Source: Hermatobates lingyangjiaoensis (lineage: Eukaryota; Arthropoda; Insecta; Hemiptera; Hermatobatidae). From it: a stretch of 64,000 bases of DNA. The stretch lies in the NCBI GenBank assembly GCA_026182355.1, contig JAPFBL010000534.1:114501-178500 (forward strand). Direction: 5' to 3'. Below the pieces are notes generated by a model. It searched no databases. It saw only the letters and a list, made by a program, of their open reading frames with translations, and was not told where the DNA came from. Made by a program: the position numbers and the translations under genes. Positions within the stretch are counted from its first letter, which is position 1, and the number at the start of each line of letters is the position of its first letter. Shown piece after piece: positions 4,473-63,176 of this stretch.

Positions 4473-4515
4473 GACTAAGATCTTTCAACCGTAACAAGTG
4501 GTCTTCGTCAGAGTC
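4473..4515 (-). ncRNA. Hammerhead-like ribozyme, family A
   Basis: CUGACGA, one extra A, GACCA with CGGUU as stem II, GAAA, palindromic stem III AGA/UCU, a cleavage-site U and stem I GACU/AGUC. One stem II pair is lost relative to the plus-strand mate. Confidence 0.55.
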
Positions 4516-4561
4516 AAAAACCCATCTGCTTGGGTTTTTTGTCAAAAACAGTTTGGTTTTT

Positions 4562-4604
4562 GACTCTGACGAAGACCGCTTGTTACGGTTGAAAGATCTT
4601 AGTC
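4562..4604 (+). ncRNA. Hammerhead-like ribozyme, family A
   Basis: 43 nt: stem I GACU/AGUC, core CUGACGA, an extra A, stem II GACCG/CGGUU with a 7-nt loop, GAAA, stem III AGA/UCU with no loop, cleavage-site U. All core positions are intact. The loopless stem III is expected to work better as a dimer. Confidence 0.65.
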
Positions 4605-4789
4605 TTGTTTTCCCATTTCTTATTGTGGTTTGATCATTATATTACAGTATATGATCAAACCACAATATGAAATGGGAAAACAAGACATATTTGGGATATT
4701 TACTCAAACTTTTCTTCTTGTTATTGAATTGCTCGTCTGATATATATGTTTAGAATTCAAAACAGTCCGTTTGTTATGTTATGTTATTA

Positions 4790-4960
4790 AACAGATTTCA
4801 CATAAACACGTGAAATAACAATCAATGATCAAACCACAATATGAAATGGGAAAAACAAGACTAAGATCTTTCAACTGACGAAGACCGCTTGTTACGGTTG
4901 AAAGATCGTAGTCTTGTTTTCCCATTTCATATTGTAGTTTGATCATTGATTGTTATTAAA
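4790..4960. mobile_element. Family A palindrome, second copy
   Basis: Arms begin with CAGATTTCACATAAACACG and end near CATTGATTGTTATT. The centre is deleted so that the left arm joins directly to CUGACGA at 4878. The plus-strand core (4875-4914) is intact but its stem I partner is lost. A stray outer arm lies at 5015-5060. Confidence 0.7.
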
Positions 4961-5076
4961 CATATTGAACGATTGCAGGAAAAGAATACGTACAAACATA
5001 CAGCCATTTCAAATTTCACGTGTTTATTGTTGTTTCACGTGTTTATGTGAAATCTTTTTACATATTACAGTATGTA

Positions 5077-5773
5077 CAGTAGTACCTCGAGATACGACTG
5101 CTTTTTCTTACGAATTATTCGAGATAAGGCCAAACATTTCGTGAAAATCCTGTTCTAAATACGACGTAATGTTCATCTTACGACGTAAAATCTGATGCGC
5201 CGAGAAAGAATTTTCTCGAGACTTCTGGAACCTTCCAGAAGCTTCTGAGACCGTTCGGGACAGTGTGTGTTGCAGGAACGACCCAATGTGTTCACGTGAA
5301 CTGCGCGTAGCGATGCGTATACGACGCCGCAGCATCCCACAAGGCGTCCTTTCTTCAGAAAGCCGGTAAATTTCGTATCGTTCGGGTCCCTGTATTTGTG
5401 CTCCGACTTTCTCGTATTTTCTCGTATCGCCCGCGTCTCATTTGTCCTATTTATCTTAATTGTATTAACAATGGGACCTAAGAAGAAGTCCCACCCACGT
5501 ACCAAAATCATGCACCTGAAACTCGGTTTTTACATATTAATTCATTATTTATTCAATTCTTTTGTATTTGTATGGTTAAATGCTTGTTTTTTTAGTGTAC
5601 TTTTGTTAGTTTTATAACGTAAAATAGGAAATTATATACGGGTTTTGGACCGTGGAACCAATTAATTTTTTTTTCCATTAATTCTTATGGTAATTATATG
5701 TTCGTGATACGAATTCTTTAAGATACCACGGGAGTTCCAGAACCAATGAAATTCGTATCTCGAGGTACTACTG
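5077..5773. mobile_element. pogo/Tigger-like element, about 700 bp
   Basis: Inverted termini CAGTAGTACCTCGAGATACG and CGTATCTCGAGGTACTACTG lie between TA dinucleotides. At 5471 a short ATG frame (MGPKKKSHPRT) looks like a vestige of a transposase start, but no continuing frame exists. Deletion derivative. Confidence 0.8.
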
Positions 5774-5879
5774 TACACTTTAGTTGCATTTACGTATGTT
5801 CACACACATAGGATAGCTGTATATATAAATGTCAAGTCGTTTGACTATGAACTTGTCAGTTTCTAATAAATAAGCTTTA

Positions 5880-6010
5880 TTGAAACCCATGTTTCAAACA
5901 CTTGTTGTTCATCATCAAGGCCACAAGTGCTCCTCAGGGACATTGCTCTGTTTCATCTTCCCATGTTTCAACACTTGTTGTTCATCATCAGGCCACAAGT
6001 GACATTGCTC
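5880..6010 (-). repeat. Family B fragments, two direct partial copies
   Basis: Two neighbouring stretches read, on the minus strand, GGCC then UUGAUGA or CUGAUGA, a GAACA stem and GUGUUUGAAAC. The first has lost core position C3. They lie in the intron just before the terminal exon at 6089. Confidence 0.5.
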
Positions 6011-6088
6011 TGTTTCCTCTTCACTTATTCCTGTTTTTCAAAACGAAATATTTACTAAATTTATTTGTTTTTTTTTTTTCTGTTAAAG

Positions 6089-7470: not shown

Positions 7471-7569
7471 GAACGAGGAAGAGACAGTTCCTCACTTTCT
7501 CTTTCAATGCCCTGGTTTGGCTCAAAAAAGGAAAGAAGCACTAGGAGAATATTTCTTTGATAATCTTGA

Positions 7570-7745: not shown

Positions 7746-8040
7746 TGGTACAACTCTTATAGGATTTGTAGAGCGAATTCAATTTTTGGTTAAATCAAAA
7801 TCGTACATTTATATATAAAGATAATGCATAGTCTCTTTATCTTTTAACTGGTTGATTAAGTTATTGAAAATTTTATGCAAACCATTATGGAGTAGTGACG
7901 TGCAGGAAGGGAGGGGGAGGGGGGGCTGTGTCATCATGAGAGGAAAAAAGAAACGCGATAATAAAATAATATGTTATCATTCTAGGGTAAAAAGCTAATA
8001 AAATGGTCTTTTTCACATATAACAATTTAATCGTATAAAC

Positions 8041-8076
8041 AACGCGTTTCGAACACGTGGTGTTCTTCTTCAGGCA
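8041..8076 (-). ncRNA. Hammerhead-like ribozyme, family B
   Basis: CUGAAGA, extra A, GAACAC/GUGUUC stem, GAAA and palindromic stem III ACG/CGU, reading on the minus strand. Stem I is weak. Core positions intact. Confidence 0.55.
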
Positions 8077-8156
8077 TTAACTAAGGATGAGTGTCTGTGG
8101 TACAAGTCACAATACCACACAACTCAGTTGTACCACAGATATTCATCCTTAGTTAA

Positions 8157-8195
8157 TGCCTGAAGAAGAACACTACGTGTTCGAAACGCGTTGTT
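8157..8195 (+). ncRNA. Hammerhead-like ribozyme, family B
   Basis: CUGAAGA at 8160-8166, extra A, GAACAC/GUGUUC stem with a UAC loop, GAAA, stem III ACG/CGU, cleavage-site U. Stem I is only about two pairs (C-G, G-U). Mirror image of 8041-8076. Confidence 0.55.
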
Positions 8196-8350
8196 TATAC
8201 GATTAAATTTTTATATGTGAAGACCATTTCATTAGTTTTTTTACCCTACTATGAGTAAATACCACATAATAACCGATTGCATTACGTTAGAATAATATTT
8301 TATTATGTTATTTGTTAATATCTTCAATAATTAATATTTGTCCTTTGGAC

Positions 8351-10345: not shown

Positions 10346-10564
10346 TCTTGACACAAAGGAGACACTCAGAAATGAAACAGAAACTCACTACTACTCGTAT
10401 ATTTCGATGTCCTCGTGATCAGAAAGATAGAAACGAGTCGCTCCGCAGGTAGACAACGACTCATGATATACAATACAATAATAAAATATATATATATAAA
10501 GGTTTCACATAAACACGTGAAATAACAATCAATGATCAAACCACAATAAGAAATGGGAAAACAA

Positions 10565-10607
10565 GACTAAGATCTTTCAACCGTAACAAGCGGTCTTCGT
10601 CAGAGTC
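10565..10607 (-). ncRNA. Hammerhead-like ribozyme, family A
   Basis: Complete 43-nt form: GACU/AGUC stem I, CUGACGA, extra A, GACCG/CGGUU stem II, GAAA, AGA/UCU stem III, U at the cleavage site. Confidence 0.65.
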
Positions 10608-10627
10608 AAAAACTCAACTGACTTTTT

Positions 10628-10670
10628 GACTCTGACGAAGACCGCTTGTTACGGTTGAAAGATCTTAGTC
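10628..10670 (+). ncRNA. Hammerhead-like ribozyme, family A
   Basis: Mirror partner of 10565-10607 with the same complete 43-nt form. Only 20 bases separate the two, so a transcript of this element would favour one long hairpin over either ribozyme fold. Confidence 0.65.
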
Positions 10671-10744
10671 TTGTTTTCCCATTTCTTATTGTGGTTTGAT
10701 CATAGATATATATATATATATATATATAAATATATATATATATA

Positions 10745-11020: not shown

Positions 11021-11029
11021 ATATATTGT

Positions 11030-11325
11030 ATTAGGTAGATTTTGTTTTTGAGGGCTAGGTCATATAAAAGAAAATAAACTCCTTCCTAGGCCAACGTTTC
11101 AATGTATTTGTACATCATCTTCAGGGCTAAAATTACAGTAAGAACTATAAATACATTTAACAAAACAATCTTCAACCTACATAATTTTTTGTTAAAATGT
11201 ATTATACTTCTTACTTCTAATTTTAGCCCTGAATATGATGTACAATTACATCGAAACGTTGGCCTAGGAAGGAGTTTATTTTCTTGTATATGACCTAGAC
11301 CTCAAAAACAAAACCTACCACATAC
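11030..11325. mobile_element. Family F palindromic element (variant 2)
   Basis: Arms contain CTCCTTCCTAGGCCAACG and CGTTGGCCTAGGAAGGAG. The minus-strand arm has an intact hammerhead core (11090-11127). The plus-strand arm at 11226-11263 keeps stem II GAUGU/ACAUC and GAAAC but has CUGAAUA, losing core G8. Confidence 0.8.
11090..11127 (-). ncRNA. Hammerhead-like ribozyme, family F
   Basis: 38 nt: stem I GCC/GGC, CUGAAGA, extra U, stem II GAUGUA/UACAUU with a CAAA loop, GAAA, stem III AC/GU, cleavage-site U. All core positions intact. Confidence 0.65.
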
Positions 11326-11477
11326 AATAGAATAGAAGAAGTCAATAACAATTTCTTGAGAATATATATTTCATTAAAATGTTCTTAAACAGCTTAGTTT
11401 AAAAGTCTTAAATGCTGAAGCTGCCTAAGTAAATTTTAATGAAATATGCCTACGTGAAGATTTGCTGCCCTCTTAGA

Positions 11478-11479
<2 letters not shown>

Positions 11480-11518: not shown

Positions 11519-11665
11519 TAAAAGAAACGGTCCAGCGAACTTTTTTAAATAAAATAAATTCAAAACGAATGAAAGACACAGACATAACTCACACCTCCTG
11601 ATGACGACGATGGTCGAAATATCGATGAGTTATGTTTGTGTGTTTCCTTCGTTTTGAATTTATTA
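11515..11665 (+). mobile_element. Family C element, right arm mostly
   Basis: The left arm is truncated before its ribozyme, then ACACCTCCTGATGACG leads into the complete right arm ending CGTTTTGAATTTATTA. The intact plus-strand motif is at 11592-11629. Confidence 0.7.
11592..11629 (+). ncRNA. Hammerhead-like ribozyme, family C
   Basis: CUGAUGA, extra C, GAC/GUC stem II with a GAUG loop, GAAA, stem III AU/AU, cleavage-site C, and a CACCUC/GAUGAG stem I with two mismatches. Core intact. Confidence 0.6.
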
Positions 11666-11825
11666 TATATATATATATAGAATAAATGTTCAAACCACAA
11701 TAAGAAATTAGAAAAAAAGACTAAGATCTTTCAACCGATCTACCTGATAACGAAGCCATCGAAATATAGTAGTTGGTTTCTGTGATTTCTTTCCTGGGTG
11801 TTCTTTTTGTGAATCTAGTTTATAT
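11666..11825. repeat. Jumbled fragments of palindromic families A and E
   Basis: Pieces of family A (CAAACCACAATAAGAAA, ACTAAGATCTTTCAACC) and of family E (CGAAATATAGTAG, GTGTTCTTTTTGTGAA) are joined here between (TA)n runs. No intact motif. Confidence 0.5.
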
Positions 11826-11990
11826 ATATATACATATAAAGTTTACATCGGCCAGTGGACGCATTTACGTCTCCGTTCCTTCATTCTTTCTCCTTTTATT
11901 TTCTTTCTTTCTACTCTCCTGAAGACGGCAAGACGCCGAAATTATCGAGATTCGTGAGTGTTCGTCCTTTTTCTTGTGTTCTCTAGCTGT
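11826..11990 (+). mobile_element. Family H element arm
   Basis: From CATCGGCCAGTGGACGC to TTCGTGAGTGTTCG, containing one intact plus-strand ribozyme-like motif. A diverged copy of the same family lies at 12530-12690. Confidence 0.6.
11915..11950 (+). ncRNA. Hammerhead-like ribozyme, family H
   Basis: 36 nt: stem I UCUC/GAGA, CUGAAGA, extra C, stem II GGC/GCC with a 5-nt loop, GAAA, stem III AU/AU with a single-base loop, cleavage-site C. Core intact. Confidence 0.65.
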
Positions 11991-12124
11991 AACTTTAATT
12001 ATATACATATAAATTAATACCACAATATATATTAATTAAAATGTTCTAATGCCTTTCGTTACAACATCATCAGAGAGCTAAATGAAACAACCAAAAAATA
12101 TGATATATATATATATATATATAA

Positions 12125-12415
12125 ACAAACACTTTTTCTTCTTCTTGGAATTTGGTCAGGGTTAATATATGGAATCACCTTTTTGCCAACGTTTCTTCTT
12201 TAAGATATCCTCAGGGCTATAAACTAACAACAAACAATGGTCATTTCTACTTTAGAAACATCATAACAAAATTGTTTATTGTTTTTTTGTTAGTTTATAG
12301 CCCTGAGGATGTCTTAAAATTAAGACGAAACGTTGGCAAAAAGGTGATTCCGTATATTAACTCTGACCAAATTCCAAGAAGAAGAAAAAGTCTTTGTTAG
12401 TAATTTTGTGGTCAA
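12125..12415. mobile_element. Family F palindromic element
   Basis: Arms carry TTCTTCTTGGAATTTGGTCA / TGACCAAATTCCAAGAAGAA outside and GCCAACG / CGTTGGC inside. The minus-strand motif at 12185-12217 has CUGAGGA and GAAAC but a damaged stem II; the plus-strand motif is intact. Confidence 0.8.
12300..12337 (+). ncRNA. Hammerhead-like ribozyme, family F
   Basis: 38 nt: stem I GCC/GGC, CUGAGGA, extra U, stem II of six pairs GUCUUA/UAAGAC with an AAAU loop, GAAA, stem III AC/GU, cleavage-site U. One of the best-formed examples in the window. Confidence 0.7.
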
Positions 12416-12690: not shown

Positions 12691-12699
12691 TATACATAT

Positions 12700-12930
12700 A
12701 GGTTAATGTACAGAATGAAACATAGAGAAATTAAAAGCACACATTTACAGTCTCTCATTTTCGGTTTGAACCGTCTTCAGGAGAGATAAGAGAGGGAAAC
12801 CAAGCGTACTGGTTCAGAGACAGTTTCCCTCTCTTATCTCTCCTGAAGACGGTTCAAACCGAAAATTAGAGACTGTAAGTGTGTGCTTTTAATTTCTCTA
12901 TGTTTCTTTCTGTACATTGAACTATATTTG
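12700..12930. mobile_element. Family G palindromic element
   Basis: Arms run from TACAGAATGAAACATAGAG to CTATGTTTCTTTCTGTACA. Both contain CTGAAGACGGTT. The centre holds AACCAAGCGTACTGGTT. Fragments of the family lie at 22180-22250, 26820-26980 and 36945-37145. Confidence 0.8.
12839..12872 (+). ncRNA. Hammerhead-like ribozyme, family G
   Basis: 34 nt: stem I UCUC/GAGA perfect, CUGAAGA, extra C, stem II GGU/ACC with a short loop, GAAA, stem III AA/UU, cleavage-site A. The minus-strand mate (12752-12784) has the core but a changed stem III (AAUG). Confidence 0.65.
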
Positions 12931-16590: not shown

Positions 16591-16591
16591 G

Positions 16592-22361: not shown

Positions 22362-22618
22362 CGGTACTGTTTTCTTGACCACAAAATATTCACAAAACAC
22401 TTTTTCTTTTTCTCGGAGTTTGGTCAGGGTAAATATATGGAATCACCTTTTTGCCAACGTTTCGACTTTATTTCAAGACATCCTCAGGGCTATAAACTAA
22501 CAAAAAACAATAAACAATGGACATTTTTTCATTTCTACTTTAAAAACATCATATTTCTTCGGCTTAGGTAACAGAACCAAGCCTTCAGTAAGTTCGTTTT
22601 TCAATTTGTTTAGCGTCT
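22314..22618 (-). mobile_element. Family F single arm between the two duplication copies
   Basis: After a (TA)n run, CTCGGAGTTTGGTCAGGGT, GCCAACGTTTCG and CTCAGGGCTATAAACTAAC match a family F arm. The minus-strand motif at 22453-22490 has CUGAGGA, extra U, a stem II with one mismatch, GAAACGUU and the GCC/GGC stem I. Confidence 0.65.
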
Positions 22619-37218: not shown

Positions 37219-40200
37219 CAAATTCAATAATATATCAACCGTTGGATAGAATAGGTGTATAATAAAATCGGGATTCGGTCAATTTTCCAGGATCAAAATC
37301 AAACTCTCAATGCCGACGTTTCGGTTTTATTTAAAACCTTTTTCATAGGCCTACAAACAAAGGATGACAAGAAATCATATATAAACATCAACATATAACT
37401 AACATCAAAATGGAATATTACAATTGTGAAAAAACAAAAATATATACACAAGTAGAAGTAATAGAAAAGCAATAAATATTTTTATGAACTTACAGAAGTC
37501 AGAATTTTTGAATTAGAAAAATGATGAAATTTACATTATATAAAATGAAGTAACAATAGATAGTTAGTGAACTAACATCTTAACTGGTCAAAAACTTGGA
37601 CCAGACTAACTGATTACAATTACATGTAAACCGAACACAATCCACTCAAAGAACACAAAAAGGAACTAAGGAAATTAATCATTTTTTCTAATTCAAAAAT
37701 TCTGACTTCTGTAAGTTCATAAAAATATTTATTGCTTTTCTATTACTTCTACTTGTATATATATTTTTGTTTTTTCACAATTGTAATATTCCATTTTGAT
37801 GTTAGTTATATGTTGATGTTTATATATGATTTCTTGTCATCCTTTGTTTGTAGGCCTATGAAAAAGGTTTTAAATAAAACCGAAACGTCGGCATTGAGAG
37901 TTTGATTTTGATCCTGGAAAATTGACCGAATCCCGATTTTATTATACATATATATATATACTAGAATTTAAAAAGAACACATGGAAAGGAAATCACTGAA
38001 CTCACTACTATATTTCGATGTCCTCGTCTTCGTTGAGTCGTTATCAGCCTTTGGAGAGCGATTCACTTCTTTTCCTGAAGACGAGGACATCGAAATATAG
38101 TAGTGAGTTCAGTGATTTCCTTTCTATGTGTTCTTTTTAAATTCTAGTTTATTCAGTTCGAAGAATCGTTTCATCTAATTGTATATATATATATATATAT
38201 ATATAATAAAATATAAAACGAAGGAAACACACAGAAAGACACAGACATAACTCACATCGATATTTCGACAATCGTCGTCATCAGGAGGTGCGAAGAGTCC
38301 CGCAGGAAGACTCAGTACTGAGTACCGCCCTGTCTTCCTGTGGGACTCTTCGCTCTTCGCACCTCCTGATGACGACGATTGTCGAAATATCGATGTGAGT
38401 TATGTCTGTGTCTTTCTGTGTGTTTCCTTCGTTTTTTATTTTATTGTAAAAAAGTCCGCTGGACCGTTTCTTTTAATTGTATATATATATATATATATAT
38501 TGGTATACTTTGGGAGCAGACCTTCTTTTAAACATACCTCATTAAAGATCTTGCCAACATTAAGTTTAGTATGTTTCCTACATACCTTTTCAAGGTTTCG
38601 AATGCTACCTTTCCATCTCTGTAATCACTTTCTTAAAGTTATGTTTGATAGAAGTGAGGTAATTGTCATTGTAAATAAGTATTTATTAGAATTGTTTTAA
38701 AAAAACCTTGTATATAGAATCCTTGAAAATGGTCAACGTAGACCGAAACGTCGGAAATGTAATATGAAAAATACAATGAAAGATAAAAAAATCGGTGAGT
38801 TAATTTATATGGTACCACAGAGATGGAAAGGTAGCATTCGAAACCTTGAAAAGGTATGTAGGAAACATACTAAACTTAATGTTGGCAAGATCTTTAATGA
38901 GGTATATATATATATATATATATAATATGAAATAAAAAAAAACACGATCTAAACTGGACTAATAAATGACTGAAAAAACAACACATAAAGAACGAAAACA
39001 CTTGCTGGAGCGAATATGTCGAATCGAAACGAAGTTGATCATCAAATATCGATCCTAGTAAGTGTTTTCGTTCTTTGTGTGTGTTTTTTCAGTTATTTAT
39101 TTATGTTTTGGGATTGTATGTAGACATTGATGATTGTTGTTTTACCGATATCAAAAGTTAATAAACGCTTTTCCTAAATCCTATTGGTTCTCAAGTTTTC
39201 TCTATCAATTTTTCTTTTGTTATCCTTCTTATCATTGAATTATATCGGAAAATTCCGAGACTATAATGTGTTTATTTTAATATTTATTGATAATACGAAG
39301 TTCTATAAAAAAAAAAAAATTATATGCCATTATATGATCTTTCCTGATTTGATCTTAAGAACTTTTGCAAGGTCTTACAAAAATAAAACGCCGAGAACTT
39401 TAAATTTTCATCTTGAACTCTTTGAACATAATTTTTCTTATATTGACACCTTTATAAATTTACTTATAAGATATCTCAGAACTTTTAAGAGTTTGCTTAT
39501 ATGACAGAACTCCATGAAATTACTTTTGGAACGTTGAGAACTTTACAAATTTGCTTAAGGATCTTTCAGAACATAAATTTTCTTATATTGACACCATTAC
39601 TGATTTATTTACAGATATCTCAGAACTTTAAGAGTTTGCTTATGTAACAGAACTCCATGAAATTACTTTTGGAACGTTTAGAACTTTACAAATTTACTGA
39701 TATAGTTCTCTGAACTTGATAAATTTAGTCGATGTAATTTTAGTTGGATGCTAAATACATAATAAATGAGCCACTATTTCCGCCCCTTAGAACAGCACTA
39801 AAAGGTGAGAGCCTTATACCATGAGGCAGTGGAAAACAAACAATTTTAAATTTCAACAGAATACTTAATGGTGACTTTCAGAAATTTACAGATTTACCGA
39901 TATACTAACGAAATTCTCAAAATATGACATATCTACCAGGTATACTTTACACGTATACTAAAATCATTTTCACAACTTCAAATTTTATGTAATTTCCAGA
40001 AATTTAACTAACTTAAATTTGATATAACTTAATATGGAAGTCTTAAAAAATGTTTAAAATTTACTAAAAATACTTTTCTGAGATGTTATAAATTTAGAAA
40101 ATATATTTGCATTGTTGCTCAGTTTATATTACTGTTAATGATTTTTCATATGAATCGTGCAATTTGAAAATAATCTAATTGACGAAATATTTGAATTGTC

Positions 40201-43200: not shown

Positions 43201-46200
43201 ACTTGTTACCTGTTGGGAAGTTGTAATAATAATAATAAATTATAATAAAAATAACGATTACACTAACAATGAAAACTGATTATTACCTGCTTTATGAGGG
43301 CTATTGACAAAGTAAGGATTTTTTTTTTCAGAAAAAAAACTTAAGTACAAAAAATAAATTTTATGGTGTACATCTAAAATAGCGACGAAAATACTATTGT
43401 TCTACATAGTCGCAAAAAAAAAATTAAGGCACTTATCATAGCGGTAGATATGCTTTGAAGTTCCTGCGAACTTCAGAATTCAGTCGACCTCAATGATTCG
43501 CACGCCGAGTTCATATTGTATATATAATACAGTTTTTATTGTACTTAGTTATTTTGTAATTCCAAAACGTAATAATGATTTTGATTACTCACTGCTTATT
43601 ATAATGATACTGATTACTCACTGCTTATTATAATGATACTGATTACTCACTGCTTATTATAATGATACTGATTACTCATTGTAATATACTGATTATTAAC
43701 TGCTACTATTTCGTGAGATTATGTTCAAATTGCATGATTAATATAAACTGGACAAAGTATAAGTAGTTTTTTTTTTCATAAACTTATAAAATGTCAGAAA
43801 TATATTTTTAATAAAAAGTTCTGTGAGTTTCGTATGTAAATCTATAAGTTTTTTGAAGTTATATCATTAAATCTTTAATGTTTTAAAAGAAAAAGTTGTA
43901 AAGTTCTGAAAATTATTTTTAGTAAATTTGTAAAGTTCCAAGGATTTTTTACTACATCAGTGGAATTACGAAATTCTGTGAGTTTTTGCTACTGGTATAT
44001 CTGTCATATCGGTAATTGTATAAAGTTCTGTTGGATCCATAAATCAATGATCAAACCACAATAAGAAAATGGGAAAGCAAGACTAAGATCTTTCAACCGT
44101 AACAAGCGGTCTTCGTCAGAGCCAAAAACCCAACTGAAAACACTAGATGCTGAAAACATCTGGTGAGGGGTTGAGAAGAGTGGAGTAAGAAAGAGTAAAG
44201 TTAGCGAATAGTTTTTTTTCTCTTTCTTACTGTCCTCTTTTGGTTCCCCCAAACATCCCTTTCTGGATATTTGTCCTTTCCTGCACTTCCACCCTTTTAA
44301 AATACCACTCTTCTCAACCCCTCACCAGATGTTTTCTGCATCTAGTGTTTAAGTTGGGTTTTTGACTCTGACGAAGACCGCTTGTTACGGTTGAAAGATC
44401 TTGGTCTTGTTTTTCCATTTCATATTGTGGTTTGATCAAGTATCTTTATATAATGTTCTGTAGGGCCTGAAAGTTAAATTTGTTAAATTCTAGAAGTAAC
44501 TTATCAGTTAATTGGTGAAACTTTCACCAGTAAATGAATGAAAGGTTGTCTGTTCTCCAATCCTTCATTTTGGAAGTTTACTTGATGATGAACACAAAGT
44601 GTTTGAAACGCTTAGTTGTCTGTCCTCCTCCACTCCTTCATATTGGAAGTTTACTTGATGATGAACACAAAGTATTTGAAACGCTTAGTTGTCTGTTCTC
44701 CTCCTCTCCTTCATATTGGAAGTTTACTTGATGATGAACACAAAGTGTTTGAAACGCTTAGTTGTCTGTCCTCCTCCACTCCTTCATATTTGAAGTTTAC
44801 TTGATGATGAACACAAAGTGTTTGAAACGCTTAGTTGTCTGTCCTTCATATTGGAAGTTTACTTGATGATGCACACAAAGTGTTTGAAACGCTTAGTTGT
44901 CTGTCCTCCTTCACTCCTTCATATTGGAAGTTTACTTGATGATAAACACAAAGTGTTTGAAAGCTTAGTTTGAATAAAACAACTTCTTTTGTGTGTGTAG
45001 ACTTTGTATTATCTATTTACCCCCAGGATGAATTTGCAAAATAATATAACAACTCTCTTTGAAATGTCACTCAGAAGTTTCTGCTTGTCGTCGCTTCATT
45101 TTGTTTGTCTTGTCTGTAGATTTAACTTTTAATTTTTATTGATATATATTTTCGACCACTCAATTGTTTAAAATACTAATTTAGTCATCGATGATTAGGT
45201 CCAAGTTAACTTCAGATTTCGAGCCGACGTTTGAATAGTCATTATAATAACTATAAGAATAATAATAACGTTTGAATAAGCTGATAATAACAAAGTGAAA
45301 ATACATGCATTTCGTCATTACCACAGAGGTTAGTATTATTAATATTAAACATATAATATACTGCCTTACCACAACGGTAATCTTACGTTACCAGTAGTGT
45401 ACGAGGTAAGACGATATATTATATGTTTAATATTAATAAAGTGAAAATACTTCCTCCTTTAAATTGTAAGGCAACAAAATTGTACATTTTGTTTTTTTTT
45501 TATATTGTTCCTTAATGTGTTTTTTGTTTTCTGTTTTCTTTTTGATTGAATTATAAGTAAAAAATTTTTACACTTTTATTAAAGGAAAATATTTTCCGTT
45601 GTTTTTTTTTTATAAATCTGAGGATATTTTTCGTTTATTGCTTTTGTAGTTTTAAAGATAATGCCCAAAATTTCAAGACTCTAAAATTAGATATGTTAGG
45701 ATAAGTGTTAAGGTCTCCACACAAAAAAGTTTATTACGAGAAACTAAACAACTCGTTTCGAACAGTTAATGTTCTTTTTCTTGTGGAGACTTAATACTTT
45801 TCCTAACAAGAGTAAAATACCACCACACTATAACAGATTGCACAGTTAATGAATTTAAATTAGTTAGTTTTAGGAGAAAACAATATTTAAAAATGGATTT
45901 TTTTTGCAAAAAAAAAGAAGAAAAAAGTGATTTGTTCATCGTGTATAATTACTCCCAACCAATAGGGGGGGCACTTCTACACCATGAGGCCCATTTTTGT
46001 TCTATGTATTCTCATGAACAAATGGGCCAGAGCCCATGCAAAACAGTCACAGAGTGGTATTTACTCATGATAAGGAAAATATGTCTTCACACATAAGGAT
46101 TTAATTATGCAACGCGTTTCGAACACTTAGTGTTCATCATCAGGAAACGTCTTGTATAATAATACAGACTTATTGTATTTTTCCTGAACAATCATGAAAC

Positions 46201-52279: not shown

Positions 52280-52850
52280 GTGGGCAAAAAATATCTGACA
52301 CATGTATAGGTTAAATAAAAGGCAAATAAAGTCAATAAACAATAAAGTTGTAACGTACTGCAATCAGTTATTATGTGGTATTTACTCATCGTAGGGTAAA
52401 AAGCTAATGAAATGGTCTCCACATATAAAATTTAATCGTATAAACAACGCGTTTCGAACACTTAGTGTTCTTCTTCAGGCATTAACTAAGGGTGAGTATC
52501 TGTGGTATAACTACCACAGTGTCTGTTTTACCACAGATAGTCAACTTAGTCAATGCCTGAAGCAGAACACCACGTGTTCGAAACGCGTTGTTTATACCAT
52601 TAAATTTTTATATATGGAGACCATTTCATTAGCTTTATACACTACAATAAAGTGTTGTTTTTTTATTTTGAAAAGTACATATAATGCCATTTTCTCTCAT
52701 TAGATTTAAAAAAAAACCAATGGTATTATACAGAAAAAAAAAACAAAATGGCCATTATATGTAATTTTCGAAAATAAAAACACTTTATTGTTTATTGACT
52801 TTAGTTGCCTTTTATATATCCTACAAATCATTTTGCCTGACTATATATAT
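52280..52850. mobile_element. Long palindrome with a family B palindrome inside
   Basis: Outer arms GGTTAAATAAAAGGCAAATA and TTGCCTTTTATATATCC are those of the element at 9095-9600; inside at about 52350-52645 is a family B palindrome. A damaged duplicate of an outer arm is at 52660-52800. Confidence 0.7.
52446..52481 (-). ncRNA. Hammerhead-like ribozyme, family B
   Basis: CUGAAGA, extra A, GAACAC/GUGUUC stem with UAA loop, GAAACGCG. Core intact. The plus-strand mate at 52556-52592 reads CUGAAGC, losing A9. Confidence 0.55.
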
Positions 52851-52854
52851 ATAC

Positions 52855-53091
52855 ACACTTTAACACATAGAAAAGAACACAGAAAGACACTACAGAACTC
52901 ACTTCTATATTTCGACATCCGTCGTCATCGGGAAGAAGTGCGAAGTACTCGCGTTGAGAAGCAAACTGCTACTCAACAGTAGCAGTTTGCTTCTCAACGC
53001 GAGTACTTCGCACTTCTTCCCGATGACGACGGATGTCGAAATATCGAAGTGAGTTCTGTAGTGTCTTTCTGTGTTCTTTTCTCTGTGTTAA

Positions 53092-53110
<19 letters not shown>
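52855..53110. mobile_element. Family D palindrome, shared core mutation
   Basis: Near-perfect arms from ACTTTAACACATAGAAAAG to CTTTTCTCTGTGTTAAAGT with ACTGTTGAGTAGCAG-like centre. Both arms read CCGAUGA, extra C, GAC/GUC stem, GAAAUAU: U4 of the core is C in each arm. Related to family C. Confidence 0.75.
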
Positions 53111-53145: not shown

Positions 53146-53225
53146 AAAACCACAATAAGAAAATGGGAAAACAAGACTTAAGATCTTTCAACCGCAACAA
53201 GCGGTCTTCGTCAGAGTCAAAAACC
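53142..53225 (-). mobile_element. Family A single arm with ribozyme core
   Basis: ATAAAACCACAATAAGAAAAT through GAGTCAAAAACCC. The minus-strand motif at 53175-53218 has CUGACGA, extra A, GACCG/CGGUU, GAAAGAUCUU; one inserted base lies beside stem I (GACU versus AAGUC). Confidence 0.6.
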
Positions 53226-56393: not shown

Positions 56394-59300
56394 ATGAAGC
56401 GTATTATCAGTTTGTTGTTATGTTTTTCAAATTCTGTAATTAGTTCTTCAATTTTTAATTGGCTTGGTTGGTCGCAGAAAGAAGAAAACATTACTTATAA
56501 AGGAGTACCGTTATTGGAAATACCTTTCGAAGAATTATCACCGGAAGATAGATTTTTAGTCGAAGCCAGTAGAATATCAAATATTGATCTTAGTGAATTG
56601 GATGTATGTCAGCAAAAAGTGAGTAACAATTTAATTAATTTTTTTTTGTTTTATTTAAATTAAAATGAAATTGAAATCTTATAAGGTTTTTTTTTAAGCT
56701 TATTTTTCTTGTGCAGTTAGTTATTAAACTGAAGTCTTCTTGTGGTTCCTTATCTGAAGAAGCACTGGCGAAATTTAGTGTTAATTTGCTAAATTGCCAT
56801 TTACAAGTGGAAGGAAGAAAACAATTTCCTTGTGATGAAAAGATGGTATGAAATGAACAATTTATTATTAACCAGTGTTTTAAAATAACAAATATAAGCC
56901 CTATGGTAACACTGCATGCTCTCTTGAAAATAATAACTTATGTAAATATGCCCTTCGTAAAAAGTAACTAATATATCTACAATATTGATCTATATTAACT
57001 TTCGTGTCTAGTCCTATGGTTTTGAAACAATCAAATATAATATCGATATTCTATCGTAGACAGTTTTATATTGAAATAATTCCATTAACTCTTTTTTTCT
57101 TTTGCTTCGCTTTGTATCAAAGACGCCATTTTATTTTCACAGTTACTTTTCTTTAATCGTTATGTTTTATTATTTCTTTATGTGTTTGAACTACTTGTCA
57201 TAGTGAATCTGAAAACGTTTACTCAAACTGAATAATTGTATTAAAGGTACATATTGTTTTCAATACATATTACATTAATAACAAGATTGTACTATAAAAT
57301 AAAACACGTGAAACATCAATCAACATTCAATCTACAATAAGAAATGTGAAAAAAGACTATGATCTTCCAACCGTAGCTAGTGGTCTTCGTCAGAATCAAA
57401 CACTGACTCTCATTTGCATGTTTATAAAAGCATTAAATATTATTGATATAGCTTCTCGGCCACTGATTGTTCAAAAACTAATTTATTTTTTGATGATTAA
57501 GTCCAAATTGTGTTTTTTGATTTCTGTTCTTGGATATTCTGTAGAAGTGTTCTCTCGGTTATTTGCAGTATCATTAAACATTTAAATTGTTTTTAGCCCT
57601 AATAGTAATAATTATTGCTATTTGATATTCTGTAGAAGTATTCTCTCGGTTATTTGCAGTATTATTAATCTTTTAAATTGTTTTTAGCCCTGATAATAAT
57701 AATTATTGCTATTTGATATTCTGTAGAAGTATTCTCTCGGTTATTTGCAGTATTATTAAACTTTTAAATTGTTTTTAGCCCTAATAATAATAATTATTGC
57801 TATTTGATATTCTGTAGAAGTATTCTCTCGGTTAATTACAGTATTATTAAAGTTTTAAATTGTTTTTAGCCCTAATAATAATAATAGTTATTGCTATTTG
57901 ATAATCTGTAGAAGTATTCTCTCGGTTAATTGCAGTATTATTAAAGTTTTAAATTGTTTTTATCCCTTATAATTATTAGTATTATTATTGGTTGGCAGGT
58001 TTTGAGATTTTTTTTAGGGTTTTGGTCTGGATATTAAAAAACGCTTCTTCGCCAACGTTTCGACATATATTTATGTCTTCCTCAGGGCTAAAATATTAAT
58101 ACATTGAGCACAATTATGACGACTACATTAGGTCTATTGTTTGCTAATAATAATAATAACCATTTATTGCATTATACAACTTTACACTCTTTTCTTATTT
58201 ATATTATACAGATTGTTAATGCAAATCGGCTTTTGCCGTGCTACTCGGAAACGAGTGAGTTCCGTATTTCGATATTTAGTAAGCTACATTTATATACAAT
58301 AATATAGACAGGCTTCGAATATTAACAGATATAATGATACACAATTAATGCGTCATTCTAAAGTTTGTTATCCAAATTCTTGTTTACATTTTTATTATTT
58401 TATGAATTCTTTACTTACTTCTCTCAGTTATCCTATTTTTATTATTATGAGTTTTGACTTTACTTCTGCTTTCTTCCTTTGATATGAATATTGTTTGCTA
58501 ATATGTAACATAAAAGATAACCTATAGATTTTCGTATTTCAGCCAGGTTTTGTATTACATTGATAAGAATTTTCAGAGATTTAAATTTGTTTACCTGGGA
58601 AGTCTGTTGTGTATTCTTGTTTTTTTCCATTTGTATAAACTTCTCTACATATTAAATTATTATTATTATTATTATTAATATTATTGTTATATTATAATAT
58701 TATTATTGTTATTTGTTTTCTGTTATTTAATATTCTGAAGAGGTATTCTCTCAGAGTTATTTTGCAGTATTATTTTAAATTGTTTGTAGTCCTAATAATA
58801 ATAATAATAATTATTATTTGTTTTCTGTTATATGTTATTCTGTTAAAGGTATTTTGTTTTCAGAGTTTGTTTATTGTAGTACTAATTTTTTCAGTAAATT
58901 GTTTTTTCGTCTTCAGAATGCCGACTAAAACGTTGATTAGAAATCAGAAGTTATTAATTTGTATCTAATCCTGAATAACTAAATTAGTATAACATATATA
59001 TTTATACCTGTGTTGACATTTATACGCACCAAGCCATATTTCAGGCCATATCGTTTTTAAATCAAGTCAGGTTGTCTTTTTACGATTTGCCCTTTAGCCG
59101 TCCCATATATATATTTATACCATCAAACGTACCCAACTTTGATGGGTATTTTACTAAAATTGAGAACTGCATTCTAGAACTCTACTCAGAATCCTATTTT
59201 ACGTTTTATATATAGGTTAGGTTAGGTTGCAGTGGCAGTTCCACAAGGGAACACACGTAGGCCAAGCATTGGCCCTTTGTGATACCACACAATGAAGATT

Positions 59301-62300
59301 GATTCTACAGTGGGAGCTAAATTTTGCCTAACTCAAATATATTTAGAGTAGGGATCTTTAACAAGTACCTGGCATCGTACAGGCTAAGATCCTTCTACGA
59401 GAGACGACCTTAGGTTAGGATAGGTTGCAGTGGCAGTTCTACAAGGGAACACACGTAGGCCGAGCATTGGCCCTTTGTGATACCACACAATGAAAATGGA
59501 TTCTACATTGATATTAATAAAGATTGCTTAACTCATATGTATTTAGAGTAGGGATCTTTAACGAGTACCTGACATCGTACAGGCTCGGGACCGACGGTTT
59601 AACATCCTTCTACGAGAGACGACGTTAGGTTAGGTTAGGTTGCAGTGGTAGTCCCACAAGGGAACACAAATAGGCCAAGTATTGTTTAACGTCCTTCTCC
59701 GAGGGACGACGCGCTCAGATTTATTCAGCTCCCGCGTGAATAAATCGAGGGCTGATATATTTGCTTTTATTCCAGGTGAGGATTGAACCCCGGTCCTATC
59801 AGTTCAGAGGTGAGTACGTAACCACTGAGCTAGCCTGGCCCCCCTACGTTTTATATATATAAGAGGAAAAAAAATGAAATATATTCATTTTAAAAATGTA
59901 TAGATATTTTTAAAAAATACCTTTATATCTATTACACAGGTTTTGACTACACATTGCTTAGAATTGACTCGTTTCAAGTTGTGTTTAAGTTTCATATATT
60001 AGAGAAAAATTCAGTGATGATACATGGTATTCTAAAATATTATTAGAAATTATAGAATAGCAGGAAATATCATTATTACTGCAGTCCATAACTGTCATAA
60101 GATCTGGAGTTCCTTTTACGTTTTGAAGCTTTATATACTGAGCTCAAATTTGATTTTATTCTAAGCGTACTTCTTATTTAATCAATGATAAAACCACTAT
60201 ATGAAATGGGATAACAAGACTAAGATCTTTCAACCGTAACAAGCCGTCTTCTTCAGAGTCAAAAACCCAACTGAACACTAGATGCAGAAAACATCTGGTA
60301 AGGGGTTGAGAAGAGTGGGAGGGAAGAGTGGTATTTTAAAAGGGTGAAAGCGCAGGAAAGGACTAATGTCCAGAAAGGGATGTTCATTTCTTATTGTGGT
60401 TTGATCATTGATTGTTATTTCACGTGTTTATGTGAAATCTTTTTATTCTTATTTAGTACGCAGGTAGGCAAGATTGACTTTTTGAAAGCGAGCAAATTAT
60501 GATAAAAATCAAATTAAAACATTATCGTACTATTTTATTCAGTTTTAAATAATTTATTATTATGTTTTTAAAAGTCATAGATATGTAATTTTTTTTTAGA
60601 TGCAAACCTGAAGAAGAATACTAAGTGTTAGAAATGATTTGTTAGTTTTGACATAAAGCTCTTCTGTTTAGTGACGTAGTTTTTTAAATTTCCCATCGTG
60701 CAGTATTAATTTATTATACAATTAATGGATATCGATTATTTTATCCATTAAATTAATTGTTTAGCAAACGACATTAAAATCAACTAACAATACCTACTTG
60801 CTACAGTATCAGGTAGCTAAAAATACCTGTATATCTATACAGGTTTTCTCTGTACATTGCTTAGAACTGACTCATTTCAAGTTATTTGTACGATTTATAT
60901 AGTTGAGAAAAAAGATAAAATATATTTTAAAAATATACAGGTATTTTTAGGTGTCTGATACTGTAGCAAGTAGGTATTTAGTCGATATACCTGTGTAGCT
61001 AGCCAAACACGGATTAAAAGTTCATAACTTCGCTTCTACATTGATTTTCGAATCCCATTCAAATCTTATCTTTTAAGTTAGACATACAGTAAATATACTG
61101 TCGAAGTTTCAACTCGCTGTGACTGTGTCTGAGTTTGCTTGTGATAAAAATTTTTGAACAAACAAATAAACAGTTTGTTAGAAATTTTTCTTCAAGGGTA
61201 GATTTGATTTTTATAATGCATGAAACGTAAATGTAACTTAAAATGAGTTCAGTCTAAGAAATGTACAGACAAAACCTTTCTTTTTATTAATATAGATTAA
61301 TTTTCAGTAAATCGGAAACGTTGGTTTCGGTTTTGAAAGTTTTTAATTTAAATAGTAACCCGTAATATAGAAATCAACGTTTAAAGCTCAGTTAGGAATT
61401 AAGAAGGAGTCAGAAAGATGACATTTGCACCGTGAGAAAGAGTGTAGCCTTGATTCAACGTGTGTTGGCATTATCAAATTGTTATATCATTTATTCTTAT
61501 TTGGTTGTAAAGTGCTGTTTTTGCACAGAGGGAATATGACTTGATTAAAGGCATGTCTATTATTGGATGATCAAATTTATATACAGTAATCCCTCACTTT
61601 TCACTGATAATGGGGACCAAAGACACCAGCGAAAAACGAAAATCCGCGAATAATGGACGCGCCTTTATAAAAAGCCTCTAAAGCTCAAACAACTTACCTT
61701 TCCAGCAGAGAGAGAATTCTGTTCTTACTGAATACAGTATTGTGTTGTAAATAAAAATGAAAAAAAAAAAGAAATAATTCTGAACAAAGACTAAAGTGCA
61801 GTGTGTAGATTGACAAGGGCTTGGTAAACTGGAAATTGGGCGATATGAATTAGCCAACCCAGTGTTAACGTGCTCGCCTCTGGACTGGTACGTCCGGGGT
61901 TCAATACCCACTTTGGCCTTTGATTTATTCACTTGGGAAACTAATAAATCTGATCACGTCCTTTCTGTACGATCGCCTACTCTAACTACACTTTAGTTAA
62001 GTAAAATTTTGAACTCCCTATGTTGAATGAATATAATTAATGTTGAACTCCCAATGTTGAATGGATATATTTAATTCTAATGTAGTGCAATCAGTTATTA
62101 TATGGTATTTACTCATTGTAGGGTAAAAATGTAATGAAATGGTCTCCACATATAAAAATTTTAATGATATAAACAACGCGTTTCAAACACGTAGTGTTCT
62201 TTCTCAGGCATTAACTAAGGATGAGTGCCTCTGAATAAGACTCAGAGGCACTCATCCTTAGTTAATGCCTGAGGAAGAACACTACGTGTTCGAAACGCGT

Positions 62301-63176
62301 TGTTTATATCATTAAAATTTTTATATGTGTAGACCATTTCATTACATTTTTACCCTACAAGGATATATTTAATGTTGAACTCCCAATGTTGAATGAATAT
62401 ATTTAATGTGCAACTCCCAATGTTGAATGAATATATTTAATATCGAACTCCCAATGTTGAATGAATATATTTAATGTTGAACTCCCAATGTTGAATGAAT
62501 ATATTTAATCTTCAACTCCCAATGTTGAATGAATCTATTTAATGTAGTATTACAAAGGTGGAATGTTGGGTCTATGTACCTTGTAGGACTGCCACTTCAA
62601 TCTAACCTAACTATTATACAGAGGCAAGCGGATTAAACAAAGGCTCCATATATATAAAAAAAGAAACCTTTTTTATTCTTCGCGTTTCAAACACTTCGTG
62701 TTCATCTTCAGGTAAACTTCCAATAGAAGGAGTGGAGGGCCGATAGTCTAACGTTCACTCAACTTACGAAACTAACGTTGAGTGAACGTTAGACTGTTCT
62801 GGCCTCCACTCCTTCCTTTGGGAATTTACCTGACGATGAACATAAAGTGTTTGAAACGCGTAGAGTGAAAAGGCTTTTATATATATATGGAGACTTTTGT
62901 TTTATCCATTTACTATTACTTAATTAATTATGTATTAATTACTGATTATACAACTAAAAAATTTTCTAACAGTTGTTTTGTTTGTTTCAGTCTCTCAAGG
63001 ATTGCACTAAAGATATGGATAAGGAAACGTGGAACACATACCATGTTGTCAGCAGCAGAGCACACGCTATATGCTACGCCTCGAGGCAACAGCACTTCAG
63101 AGCGCTCTCTGAAATCAGCGTTAACAAACTGATAGAGTCAGTGCGTGTCAATGTCATAGCTCTGGACCGACTGCAG
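56394..63176 (+). CDS. bmb: Brambleberry (Kar5-related nuclear fusion protein), 5' part
   Basis: Three exons: 56394-56618 (75 codons, before GTGAGT), 56717-56845 (43 codons, after GTGCAG, before GTATGA) and 62991-63176 (62 codons, after TTTCAG, before GTCAGT), all phase 0. The protein starts with a likely signal peptide (MKRIISLLLCFSNSVISSS). Family landmarks: LSPEDRFLVEASRI, LDVCQQK, LKSSCGSLSEEALAKFSVNL, LNCHLQVEGRKQFPCDEKM, SLKDCTKDMDKETWNTYHVV, SSRAHAICYASRQQHFRALS. The conserved cysteines are present. In zebrafish, brambleberry is needed for fusion of nuclear membranes of chromosome-containing micronuclei in cleavage embryos; it is related to yeast Kar5. The same activity here is inferred. 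The rest of the gene lies beyond the window. Intron 2 is 6.1 kb and repeat-filled. The end of exon 3 with its donor is tandemly repeated downstream. Confidence 0.9.
57300..57400 (-). mobile_element. Family A arm, degenerate
   Basis: TAAAACACGTGAAACATCAATCA, CAATAAGAAATGTGAAAA and GTCTTCGTCAGAATCAAAC match family A. Minus-strand motif keeps CUGACGA but GAAA became GGAA. In bmb intron 2. Confidence 0.65.
57533..57975. repeat. About 91-bp minisatellite, five units
   Basis: Unit: GATATTCTGTAGAAGTATTC, TCTCGGTTATTTGCAGTATT, AAATTGTTTTTAGCCCTAAT, (AAT)n, TATTGCTATTT. A sixth, diverged relative is near 58730-58800. The TTTTAGCCCT end resembles the start of the family F ribozyme region (TTTTAGCCCTGAGGA), hinting at common origin. 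Confidence 0.8.
58020..58110 (-). mobile_element. Family F single arm with intact ribozyme
   Basis: GGTCTGGATATTAAAAAACG outer sequence, GCCAACGTTTCGAC and CTCAGGGCTAAAATATT inner sequence. Only one arm present. Confidence 0.7.
58051..58088 (-). ncRNA. Hammerhead-like ribozyme, family F
   Basis: 38 nt: stem I GCC/GGC, CUGAGGA, extra A, stem II GACAUA/UAUGUC perfect with an AAUA loop, GAAA, stem III AC/GU, cleavage-site U. Core intact; stem II sequence is entirely different from 12300-12337 yet fully paired. Confidence 0.7.
58111..59213. other. bmb intron sequence, (ATT)n and unassigned
   Basis: An (ATT)n microsatellite is at 58656-58690; 58905-58960 has a decayed palindrome-family K core (CTTCAGAATGCCGACTAAAACG). 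No exon supported. Confidence 0.5.
59214..59845 (-). mobile_element. Three tRNA-derived SINEs joined tail to body
   Basis: Copies begin at about 59214, 59411 and 59623, each with AGGTTAGGTT(A)GGTTGCAGT. The first two are cut at CTACGAGAGACGAC, at the same point as 18374, and only the third has the tRNA-like head (GAGCTAGCCTGGCCC at 59828-59842). Confidence 0.8.
60175..60440. mobile_element. Family A palindrome, internally deleted
   Basis: Left arm complete with the 44035-44440 inner segment (ACACTAGATGCAGAAAACATC, GGGGTTGAGAAGAGTGG, GTGGTATTTTAAAAGGGTG); right arm begins only at TTTCTTATTGTGGTTTGATC. The right ribozyme motif is deleted. Confidence 0.7.
60218..60260 (-). ncRNA. Hammerhead-like ribozyme, family A
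   Basis: CUGAAGA, extra A, GACGG/CGGUU stem with one mismatch, GAAA, AGA/UCU stem III, GACU/AGUC stem I. N7 differs from the other copies (A instead of C), which the fold permits. Confidence 0.55.
60441..61029. other. bmb intron with a decayed family B motif and a palindrome
   Basis: 60608-60640 reads CUGAAGA, A, GAAUAC..GUGUUA, GAAAUG, a weakened family B motif. 60795-60985 is an imperfect palindrome with AAAAATACCTGTATATCTAT and ATACAGGTATTTTTAG plus ACAGTATCAGGTAG / CTGATACTGTAGC. No gene. Confidence 0.5.
61030..61560 (+). mobile_element. Interspersed repeat, reverse copy of 13281-13850
   Basis: Shares AGTTTCAACTCGCTGTGA, ATAATGCATGAAACG, GAAACGTTGGTTTCGG and CAACGTGTGTTGGCATTATC with the other copy. 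No reading frame. The GAAACGTTGGTTTCGG hairpin is part of the repeat. Confidence 0.6.
61585..61760 (+). mobile_element. pogo/Tigger-like element, 5' end only
   Basis: CAGTAATCCCTCACTTTTCA, AATGGGGACCAAAGAC and GCGAAAAACGAAAATCCGCG are characteristic of a Tigger-type left end, truncated after about 150 bases with no right terminus found. Confidence 0.65.
61850..62020 (+). mobile_element. tRNA-derived SINE, truncated
   Basis: AACGTGCTCGCCTCTGGACTG, CCGGGGTTCAATACCCACTT, TTGATTTATTCACTTGGG and CTACTCTAACTACAC are the SINE head and body; the tail is absent. Confidence 0.7.
62088..62358. mobile_element. Family B palindromic element
   Basis: Arms TAGGGTAAAAATGTAATGAA and TTCATTACATTTTTACCCTA, very short centre (CTGAATAAGACTCAG). 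Clean boundaries within the minisatellite. Minus-strand core CUGAGAA has lost G8; plus-strand core intact. Confidence 0.85.
62267..62304 (+). ncRNA. Hammerhead-like ribozyme, family B
   Basis: CUGAGGA, extra A, GAACAC/GUGUUC stem with UAC loop, GAAA, stem III ACG/CGU, U. Core intact, stem I weak. Confidence 0.55.
62548..62612 (+). mobile_element. SINE tail fragment
   Basis: TCTATGTACCTTGTAGGACT and GCCACTTCAATCTAACCTAAC match the SINE end only. Confidence 0.55.
62679..62714 (-). ncRNA. Hammerhead-like ribozyme, family B subtype 2
   Basis: CUGAAGA, extra U, GAACAC/GUGUUU stem with GAA loop, GAAACGCG. Core intact; stem III partner sequence is changed (CGA). Confidence 0.45.
62827..62865 (+). 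ncRNA. Hammerhead-like ribozyme, family B subtype 2
   Basis: CUGACGA at 62830-62836, extra U, GAACAU/GUGUUU stem, GAAA, stem III ACG/CGU, cleavage-site A. Core intact. Confidence 0.5.

Follow-up and report, generated by a model that had tools for sequence, protein, structure and literature searches.

Hammerhead-like motifs in palindromic repeats of a 64-kb stretch of the Hermatobates lingyangjiaoensis genome and their probable origin as ends of Penelope-like elements

Minimal type I hammerhead ribozymes with a reduced stem III are associated with Penelope-like elements (PLEs), occur in thousands of copies in animal genomes and are said to be active as dimers (Cervera and de la Pena 2014; Lunse et al. 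2017; as described in citing papers). Here we describe short repeats with motifs of this kind in a 64-kb stretch of DNA from the hemipteran insect H. lingyangjiaoensis (assembly GCA_026182355.1, contig JAPFBL010000534.1, positions 114501 to 178500), which is called the window throughout. Together with coding PLEs from the same genome (910 Mb, 1629 contigs), they suggest that the repeats are, with high probability, truncated PLE ends.

Several related systems have been described. PAc, the Poseidon element of Anolis, cuts and extends both strands and starts internally; its tail lies between two start sites and its cleavage needs protein (PMC11167929). In bdelloid Penelope elements, inverted pseudo-long terminal repeats (pLTRs) are mostly arranged head-to-head, with a tail on one of them and target duplications of 8–10 bp (PMC3846280). 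A U3-A8 change that compensates for C3-G8 is found in several natural hammerheads which are active in vitro (Perreault et al. 2011, PMC3088659).

The motifs of the window share with the minimal PLE hammerheads the type I order, the reduced stem III and the association with PLEs. Nearly all of them (25 of 26) carry one nucleotide between A9 and stem II, a possible difference from the published consensus. PAc is similar to the H. lingyangjiaoensis elements in its open reading frame (ORF) beginning at hammerhead stem II, its tail of 30–40 nt and its AT-rich target (PMC11167929). However, PAc has C3 and G8, whereas two coding families of our genome have U3-A8 (P1) or A3 plus a three-nucleotide insertion (P2), and the window families F, B, A, C and H have A or C where the AUG would have its U. 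Bdelloid Penelope is alike in its inverted pLTRs, single tail, duplications and first codons inside pLTR plus tail; the word hammerhead is absent from the text of PMC3846280 consulted, and here the palindromes of the window are tiny and a single template source is shown for both arms of P2. In contrast to the U3-A8 hammerheads of PMC3088659, this variant is here the core of the coding family P1 and of two further sequence families. Animal retrozymes are likewise non-autonomous, with a type I hammerhead and a likely PLE helper, but are described as tandem units giving circular RNAs (PMC7229834), whereas the arrangement here is palindromic.

Published work already covers minimal hammerheads in PLEs and their activity as dimers, as well as U3-A8 cores, single-tailed head-to-head PLEs and ORFs that begin at stem II. 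In the literature searched, we found neither the link between extra nucleotide and start codon nor the count of one-sided tails nor the result of one template source.

Hammerhead-like motifs in the window

The window was scanned on both strands with two grammars. The loose grammar consists of CTGANGA, a stem II of at least three Watson–Crick pairs and GAAA; the strict grammar further requires H17, a stem III with 2 bp or more whose loop does not exceed 1, and either stem I or a longer stem II. With thresholds that were fixed after the sequence had been seen, and with copies of one family not being independent, the loose grammar detected 26 motifs, compared with a mean of 0.8 and a maximum of 3 in 60 dinucleotide shuffles. 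The reversed window gave eight, none of which had four or more Watson–Crick pairs in stem II, as against 18 of the 26 real motifs. The strict grammar detected 20 motifs in the window and none in any of the 60 shuffles. On the strength of these 20 motifs, and of the A15.1-U16.1 pair in the 14 sequences described below, we take the type I core (C3 U4 G5 A6 N G8 A9 ... G12 A13 A14, A15.1-U16.1, H17) to be present.

A covariance-model search, which the initial annotation had proposed, gave different results for public and own models. With Rfam at gathering threshold, no hammerhead match was found in the whole window, and the 51 matches obtained in 4300–13200 at E up to 10 included no hammerhead, most being to microRNA models. 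RF00008 had no match over the whole genome; its controls remained silent too, hence this result is uninformative. Our model R1, trained on 14 hammerhead sequences from the genome (13 outside the window and one, at 58048, inside), found 35 motifs at E<0.01, a number that rises to 53 at E<1; these E-values are rough, and R1 cannot be regarded as independent of the window, several families of which are found in the training loci as well. It matched all 12 sites named in the initial annotation, nine of them (including the training sequence 58048) at E<0.01 and the family F sites 4560, 10626 and 44362 at E 0.034–0.068. The initial annotation had estimated about thirty hammerhead candidates and at least six sequence families; roughly a dozen families are counted here. 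The density, described as unusual, is 0.31 strict motifs per kb in the window, but is partly a genome-wide property, since 20 other loci, picked for GIY-YIG endonuclease matches and not at random, contain 26 strict motifs in 174.5 kb (0.15 per kb). We regard the observation of hammerhead-like motifs as confirmed.

Below threshold, Rfam microRNA models match palindromes in 4300–13200 with E down to 8e-19, a source of false microRNAs. That Rfam overlooks this group of motifs and offers sub-threshold microRNA-precursor matches instead is relevant to annotation.

The nucleotide between A9 and stem II, already noted in the initial annotation, is confirmed. When spacers of 0–3 were allowed, its length was exactly 1 nt in 25 of the 26 window motifs and 2 nt in the remaining one (5991), so that stem II nowhere follows A9 directly, as it does in type I. 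A wider scan of window and loci, in which spacers of 0 or 1 were kept, gave spacer 1 in 114 of 114 rows, some of which repeat as loci overlap. Among 19 representative sequences, the extra nucleotide is U in 11, C in five, A in three and G in none (counted by eye); G was seen in one decayed F copy (L034).

Stem III is self-complementary, with loop 0, from A15.1 to U16.1 in 19 of the 26 window motifs. Among the other seven, three show loops (of 1, 3 and 4) and the remaining four lack stem III. Where self-complementary, stem III mostly comprises 4–6 nt; the forms found in window and loci are AGATCT, ACGCGT, ACGTGT, ACGT, ATAT, AATT, AGCT, ACATGT and ACCGGT. The short stem I of the initial description is weak (1–2 bp) in the ACGCGT family of the window (family B). 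A check of all three helices showed that stems I and II pair. An RNA hairpin needs a loop; the loop-less stem III can therefore form only between two RNAs.

For 14 sequences with a 4-nt stem III, 90.8% of the cells pair, compared with 66.3% after shuffling (0 of 500 as high), and pairing falls to 42% or less when the partners are slid by one to three columns. The core pair 3-8 is C-G in ten and U-A in four of them, and all 14 have the A15.1-U16.1 pair. Of the five measures in total, two show no clear excess over shuffles: pairs changed on both sides (8 versus 6.7; 124 of 500 as high) and further pair types (21 versus 17.3; 34 of 500 as high). Since these families were picked by pairing, the covariation counts are partly circular, and the pairing is a description and not an independent test, which is provided by the grammar shuffles. 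Stems I, II and III do differ between families and still pair, as stated initially, though in families picked by pairing and with two measures that do not stand out.

Palindromes, one-sided tails and coding elements

Twenty-one of the 35 R1 motifs lie within palindromes, and all 21 read outward, which gives the inverted (head-to-head) arrangement of pLTRs; one of them, the hammerhead at 38717, sits between the arms of palindrome 38534–38905, within neither arm. The arms end some 65–100 nt past the motif (by eye). A tail of roughly 30–40 nt was found on exactly one arm in 30 of the 31 palindromes judged (P2 13/13, P1 5/5, F 8/9, B 4/4), the exception, in family F, having a tail on neither arm. 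In this count the tail of L031 was judged by eye, and a fifth B pair (62711/62830) was left out as too diverged.

Target duplications accompany many of these insertions. In family P2, a flanking duplication of at least 8 bp is present in 11 of 13 palindromes and in 0 of 156 mismatched flanks; around the coding P2 palindromes it measures 8–11 bp. For families B and F, 6 of the 12 elements used have a duplication of at least 10 bp, compared with 2 of 132 mismatched flanks. Four of these six are located in the window (10–12 bp). The B and F set was reduced from 23 rows by leaving out 11: three mispairings, seven in AT repeats and one (L031:8185–8353) without duplication.

PLEs that encode both a reverse transcriptase and a GIY-YIG endonuclease are present elsewhere in the genome. 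A GIY-YIG search yielded at least 142 matches (150 of 9198 candidates scored), with many close (-,+) pairs, and twenty regions (L031–L050) were read. Family P1 (L031–L034, L050) forms head-to-head palindromes in which each arm carries the motif close to its 3' end, the arms being 98.6–99.7% alike in four of five elements and 94.7–99.0% in L032. At both arm ends it reads AGCC TTGA[AT]AA T GCCAAAC...TTTGGY GAAACGTCGGC, with small variants. Pfam identifies GIY-YIG in L050 (E 2.6e-8), with RVT_1 just under its cut-off (1.6e-6). Family P2 comprises 13 palindromes with arms 97.6–99.9% alike and the motif GTTG CGA ATGAAGA T GGACCAGATCC GAAAGCGCTC CAAC (by eye); it has A3 and three extra nucleotides between stem I and core. 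Its copy L038 matches RVT_1 (6e-9) and GIY-YIG (4.5e-6), while in the longest P2 frame (L040) Pfam finds neither of the two, even at E up to 10. The P1 and P2 proteins are 28% identical over about 500 residues (E 2e-49). P1, P2 and the family of the palindrome at 37.3 kb in the window deviate at core position 3, P1 and the latter family also at position 8.

L038 was considered as a separate coding family, P3, and this was rejected; because the end of its ORF is identical to that of P2, P3 is treated as a related pLTR. The P1 insertions read (L031–L034, L050) are mostly located in or beside AT repeats, those of P2 (L035–L048) in varied AT-rich sites.

In L040, an ORF of 846 residues begins (MDQIRKRSN) at an AUG whose three letters are A9, the additional U and the G that opens stem II. 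In the related pLTR of L038, MGDARNRSKN starts at the homologous in-motif AUG. The motifs of these two differ in stem II (GGA/TCC and GGG/CCC) and stem III (AGCGCT and ACCGGT), yet both remain complementary. Because of this composition of the AUG, the extra nucleotide appears to be at home as the U of a start codon, and the motif can sit on the start codon of a gene. In P1, the in-motif AUG opens a frame of 6–12 codons only, and the P1 ORF lies further downstream. With A or C as extra nucleotide, as in the window families listed above, there is no in-motif AUG.

From this common anatomy, it is highly probable that the repeats are 5'-truncated 3' ends (pLTRs) of PLEs, often in head-to-head pairs, for which we propose a two-sided insertion. 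We infer that the copies in the window are non-autonomous remnants of PLEs. This agrees with one of two origins suggested in the initial annotation, as they have the same palindrome, outward motif and one-sided tail, in four cases with duplication, and coding PLEs exist in the genome. The other, a captured ribozyme, is not needed since the motif is part of the PLE end.

Some results weigh against this interpretation, to which those on cleavage in the following section have to be added. Fourteen of the 35 motifs have no palindrome partner, and a clear duplication is absent from 2 of 13 P2 and 6 of 12 B and F elements. None of the ends F, B, C, G, H and A could be assigned to a coding PLE, in a search confined to B. 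That search, with the family B tail, returned at least 41 matches in the genome (40 of 706 candidates scored). In six B loci read, one of which is the window's own copy, no reverse transcriptase frame follows the tail; the tail frame stops within 24 codons in five, and in L054 the tail start was not recognized.

Cleavage, template source and insertion

Judged from sequence, ribozyme activity of these motifs is doubtful. P2, P1 and the element at 37.3 kb have non-consensus cores despite near-identical arms (mostly 97.6–99.9%, in L032 down to 94.7%). A set of 191 BLAST pieces from seven family queries, all reaching at least 45 nt past the predicted cut, showed no pile-up of arm 5' ends at this position: two lie within 2 nt (one in a tandem copy, L053, and one joined via microhomology, 11593) and four within 4 nt. 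These numbers are small, and one further arm, that of family F at 4651, starts 1 nt past the cut but was too short for inclusion among the 191. When 19 sequences were cofolded at 25 C, the hammerhead dimer was never the minimum-energy dimer. It was 3–9 kcal/mol off the minimum in nine (F, G1–G3, E, P1a, P1b, P3, P4) and 12–32 kcal/mol in ten, and the exact stem III contact occurred in one of the 19 minimum-energy dimers. In favour of activity, the geometry of the motif is kept across families, and dimer action and protein-assisted cleavage have been published for related motifs (PMC11167929 for the protein part).

The motifs may be relics without RNA activity, carried along as the reverse-transcribed end or as an overlap with the coding start. 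The altered cores, the lack of a pile-up, the cofold energies and the insertion of cleavage-less PAc mutants (PMC11167929) are all consistent with this. On the other hand, stems I, II and III and the 3-8 pair change on both sides between families (selected by pairing) and still pair, and in P2 and P3 stems II and III have stayed complementary despite different coding sequences. On balance, we consider inactive relics a real possibility, though not the expected one. With two core variants (C3-G8 and U3-A8) and an in-motif AUG in one coding family, the roles in dimer formation, translation and cleavage can be studied separately, and the many natural families of the same geometry would allow the role of the hammerhead in Penelope elements to be dissected.

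The template source was analysed for the 13 P2 elements in the last 560 bp of each arm. We found 37 variants which are private to one element and present in both its arms, many of which may be supplied by the most diverged element, L048; 24 variants occur in one arm only, and no shared polymorphism separates the two arms of any element. Within elements the identity is 99.67%, compared with 98.25% between them. An earlier P2 listing contained 26 of 120 differences with both variants elsewhere, nearly all at unsafely aligned arm ends or centres. An origin of the arms from two different family members was rejected for P2, given the 0 split polymorphisms among 13 elements.

One tail, a duplication and private variants in both arms point to one insertion with two cDNAs from one template source and two 3' start sites. 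Given the cutting and extension of both strands by PAc, the simplest model is target priming from two sides. The PLE protein would cut both target strands, and one cDNA would be primed from each target end, at two neighbouring start sites on the RNA of one source locus; the two 5'-truncated cDNAs would then be joined in the middle, resulting in a head-to-head insertion. Because stem III has no loop that would let it fold within one molecule, any cleavage would require two RNAs, probably together with the PLE protein; the P2 cut would fall 23 nt after the start of the in-motif AUG (counted by eye).

Alternatively, the palindromes may have arisen by self-priming, in which a single cDNA would turn back on itself and serve as its own template, a proposal made for rotifer Penelope (PMC3846280). 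The single template source of both P2 arms fits this proposal. Yet if a folded cDNA were copied completely, the two arms would be expected to share one 3' terminus, whereas the tail is one-sided, and open-frame lengths and centres show that the arms are of unequal length. As it leaves the one-sided tail unexplained, self-priming seems unlikely to us and two-sided priming is preferred. The combination of one tail per insertion, target duplication and one template source constrains models of PLE insertion and limits how mirror pairs may arise.

A more speculative extension of two-sided priming, which we rate as improbable, assigns a role to the loop-less stem III as an RNA dimerization signal. 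Two sister transcripts from one locus would be held by a PLE protein dimer, and the paired RNA would be licensed as twin template, partly cut at the above site after the AUG, and yield the single-tailed head-to-head insertions. Since the hammerhead would assemble only across two RNAs, the uncut single RNA, with the AUG within its motif, could serve as mRNA. If true, a single element would unite ribozyme and start codon with the choice of template and the geometry of integration.

A further rival is the animal retrozyme, whose type I hammerhead units, arranged in tandem, spread via circular RNA with PLE proteins as helper. Such elements would also be small and AT-rich, with type I hammerheads and PLEs in the same genome (PMC7229834), and a 73-bp tandem array is found at 44555–44970. 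The published units, however, are tandem repeats of 150–450 bp (PMC7229834), while here head-to-head palindromes with a one-sided tail prevail, stem III is mostly loop-less and few arms begin at the cut site. A tandem repeat scan around the named motifs revealed no array of units of about 150–450 bp, the 73-bp remnant array being the only one. A retrozyme origin is thus very unlikely. Least credible are miniature inverted-repeat transposable elements whose terminal inverted repeats resemble hammerheads by chance, as fixed outer ends, variable centres and flanking duplications would fit, but not a tail on one arm only in 30 of 31 palindromes, the identical anatomy of elements with GIY-YIG and reverse transcriptase, the hammerhead core in 19 representative sequences that are otherwise widely different, or the B tail that reads as an ORF start; no search aimed at a transposase partner was made.

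Elements and other features of the window

Table 1. Hammerhead-like motifs and the elements containing them in the window. Strands are given in brackets; E-values are from model R1.
Position	Element	Motifs	Remarks
4411..4637	Family F palindrome	4471-4517 (-), 4560-4606 (+)	Arms ~90% alike; tail on left arm only
4651..5052	Older family F palindrome, second F element nested inside		Putative 12-bp duplication ATATTACAGTAT; left arm starts 1 nt downstream of predicted cut site (by eye)
4796..4946	Nested family F element	4875 (+), stem I unpaired	Putative 12-bp duplication TGTTATTAAACA
7977..8292	Family B palindrome	8035-8079 (-), 8154-8198 (+)	Stem III ACGCGT; right-arm tail translates as MSKYHIITDC
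10493..10703	Family F palindrome	10563-10609 (-), 10626-10672 (+)	Tail on left arm only; adjoins AT repeat
11024..11329	Family G1 palindrome	11087-11130 (-), 11223-11266 (+, core CTGAATA)	
11546..11671	Family C element, arms asymmetric	11592-11629 (+) in right arm	Left arm truncated just 3' of motif
11913..11952	Family A hammerhead	(+)	Stem II GGC/GCC, stem III ATTAT (loop 1), stem I GAGA/TCTC; no palindrome partner found
12124..12398	Family G2 palindrome	12182-12220 (-), 12297-12340 (+)	
12696..12927	Family H palindrome	12749-12786 (-, stem III decayed), 12837-12874 (+)	
22450..22493	G2-like hammerhead	(-)	
37256..37948	Palindrome, arms 98.6% alike	37309-37353 (-), 37851-37895 (+), outward	Altered core: extra U, A at positions 3 and 8
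38202..38448	Family C palindrome	38253-38290 (-), 38360-38397 (+)	
38717..38758	U3-A8-core hammerhead (TTGAAAA)	(+)	Stem II GGTC/GACC, stem III ACGT, stem I GGA/TCC
44042..44438	Longer family F palindrome	44079-44125 (-), 44362-44408 (+)	No tail on either arm
44555..44970	Tandem array of B-like hammerhead remnants	(+)	Unit ~73 bp; TTGATGA; stem III palindrome lost
46105..46149	B-like hammerhead	(-)	R1 match
52388..52648	Family B palindrome	52440-52484 (-) with tail	Right-arm motif decayed
52842..53109	Palindrome, arms 95.5% alike	52900-52937 (-), 53014-53051 (+)	
53173..53220	Family F hammerhead	(-)	Weak R1 match, E 0.55
58048..58091	G4 hammerhead (R1 training sequence)	(-)	No palindrome partner found
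60185..60437	Family F element	60216-60262 (-), decayed, E 0.45	Tail on right arm only; putative 10-bp duplication TTCTTATTTA
62075..62357	Family B palindrome	62169-62213 (-, G8 to A), 62263-62307 (+)	Tail on left arm only; 12-bp duplication GGATATATTTAA
62630..62907	B-like palindrome	62676-62717 (-, decayed), 62824-62865 (+)	

The palindrome at 37256–37948 forms, together with 13066–13111, 28019–28064 and L010:779, a family with an extra core base, A or G at position 3 and A at position 8. The copy with nearly identical arms is young and has no consensus core. Tandem arrays of family B ends with units of about 72–73 bp are found both at 44555–44970 and in L053, the hammerheads in them being decayed or missing.

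Local comparison of the window with the P1 and P2 proteins detected only weak relics of ORF starts. These are P2/P3-like and located at 15424–15800, 42180–42272 and 45269–45370; the relic at 15577 (-) keeps the in-motif AUG (MDNVRKRSN).

The window also contains a direct duplication of 4.4 kb (17868–22327 and 22619–26992, 96.5% alike), with 35/105-bp minisatellites and 207-bp arrays. An open frame at 31302–31583 (-) appears to resemble the RNase P/MRP subunit POP7. Nine tandem copies of a 70-bp unit are located at 29205–29837, with another copy nearby at 28733–28801; the tandem copies resemble part of 5S rRNA.

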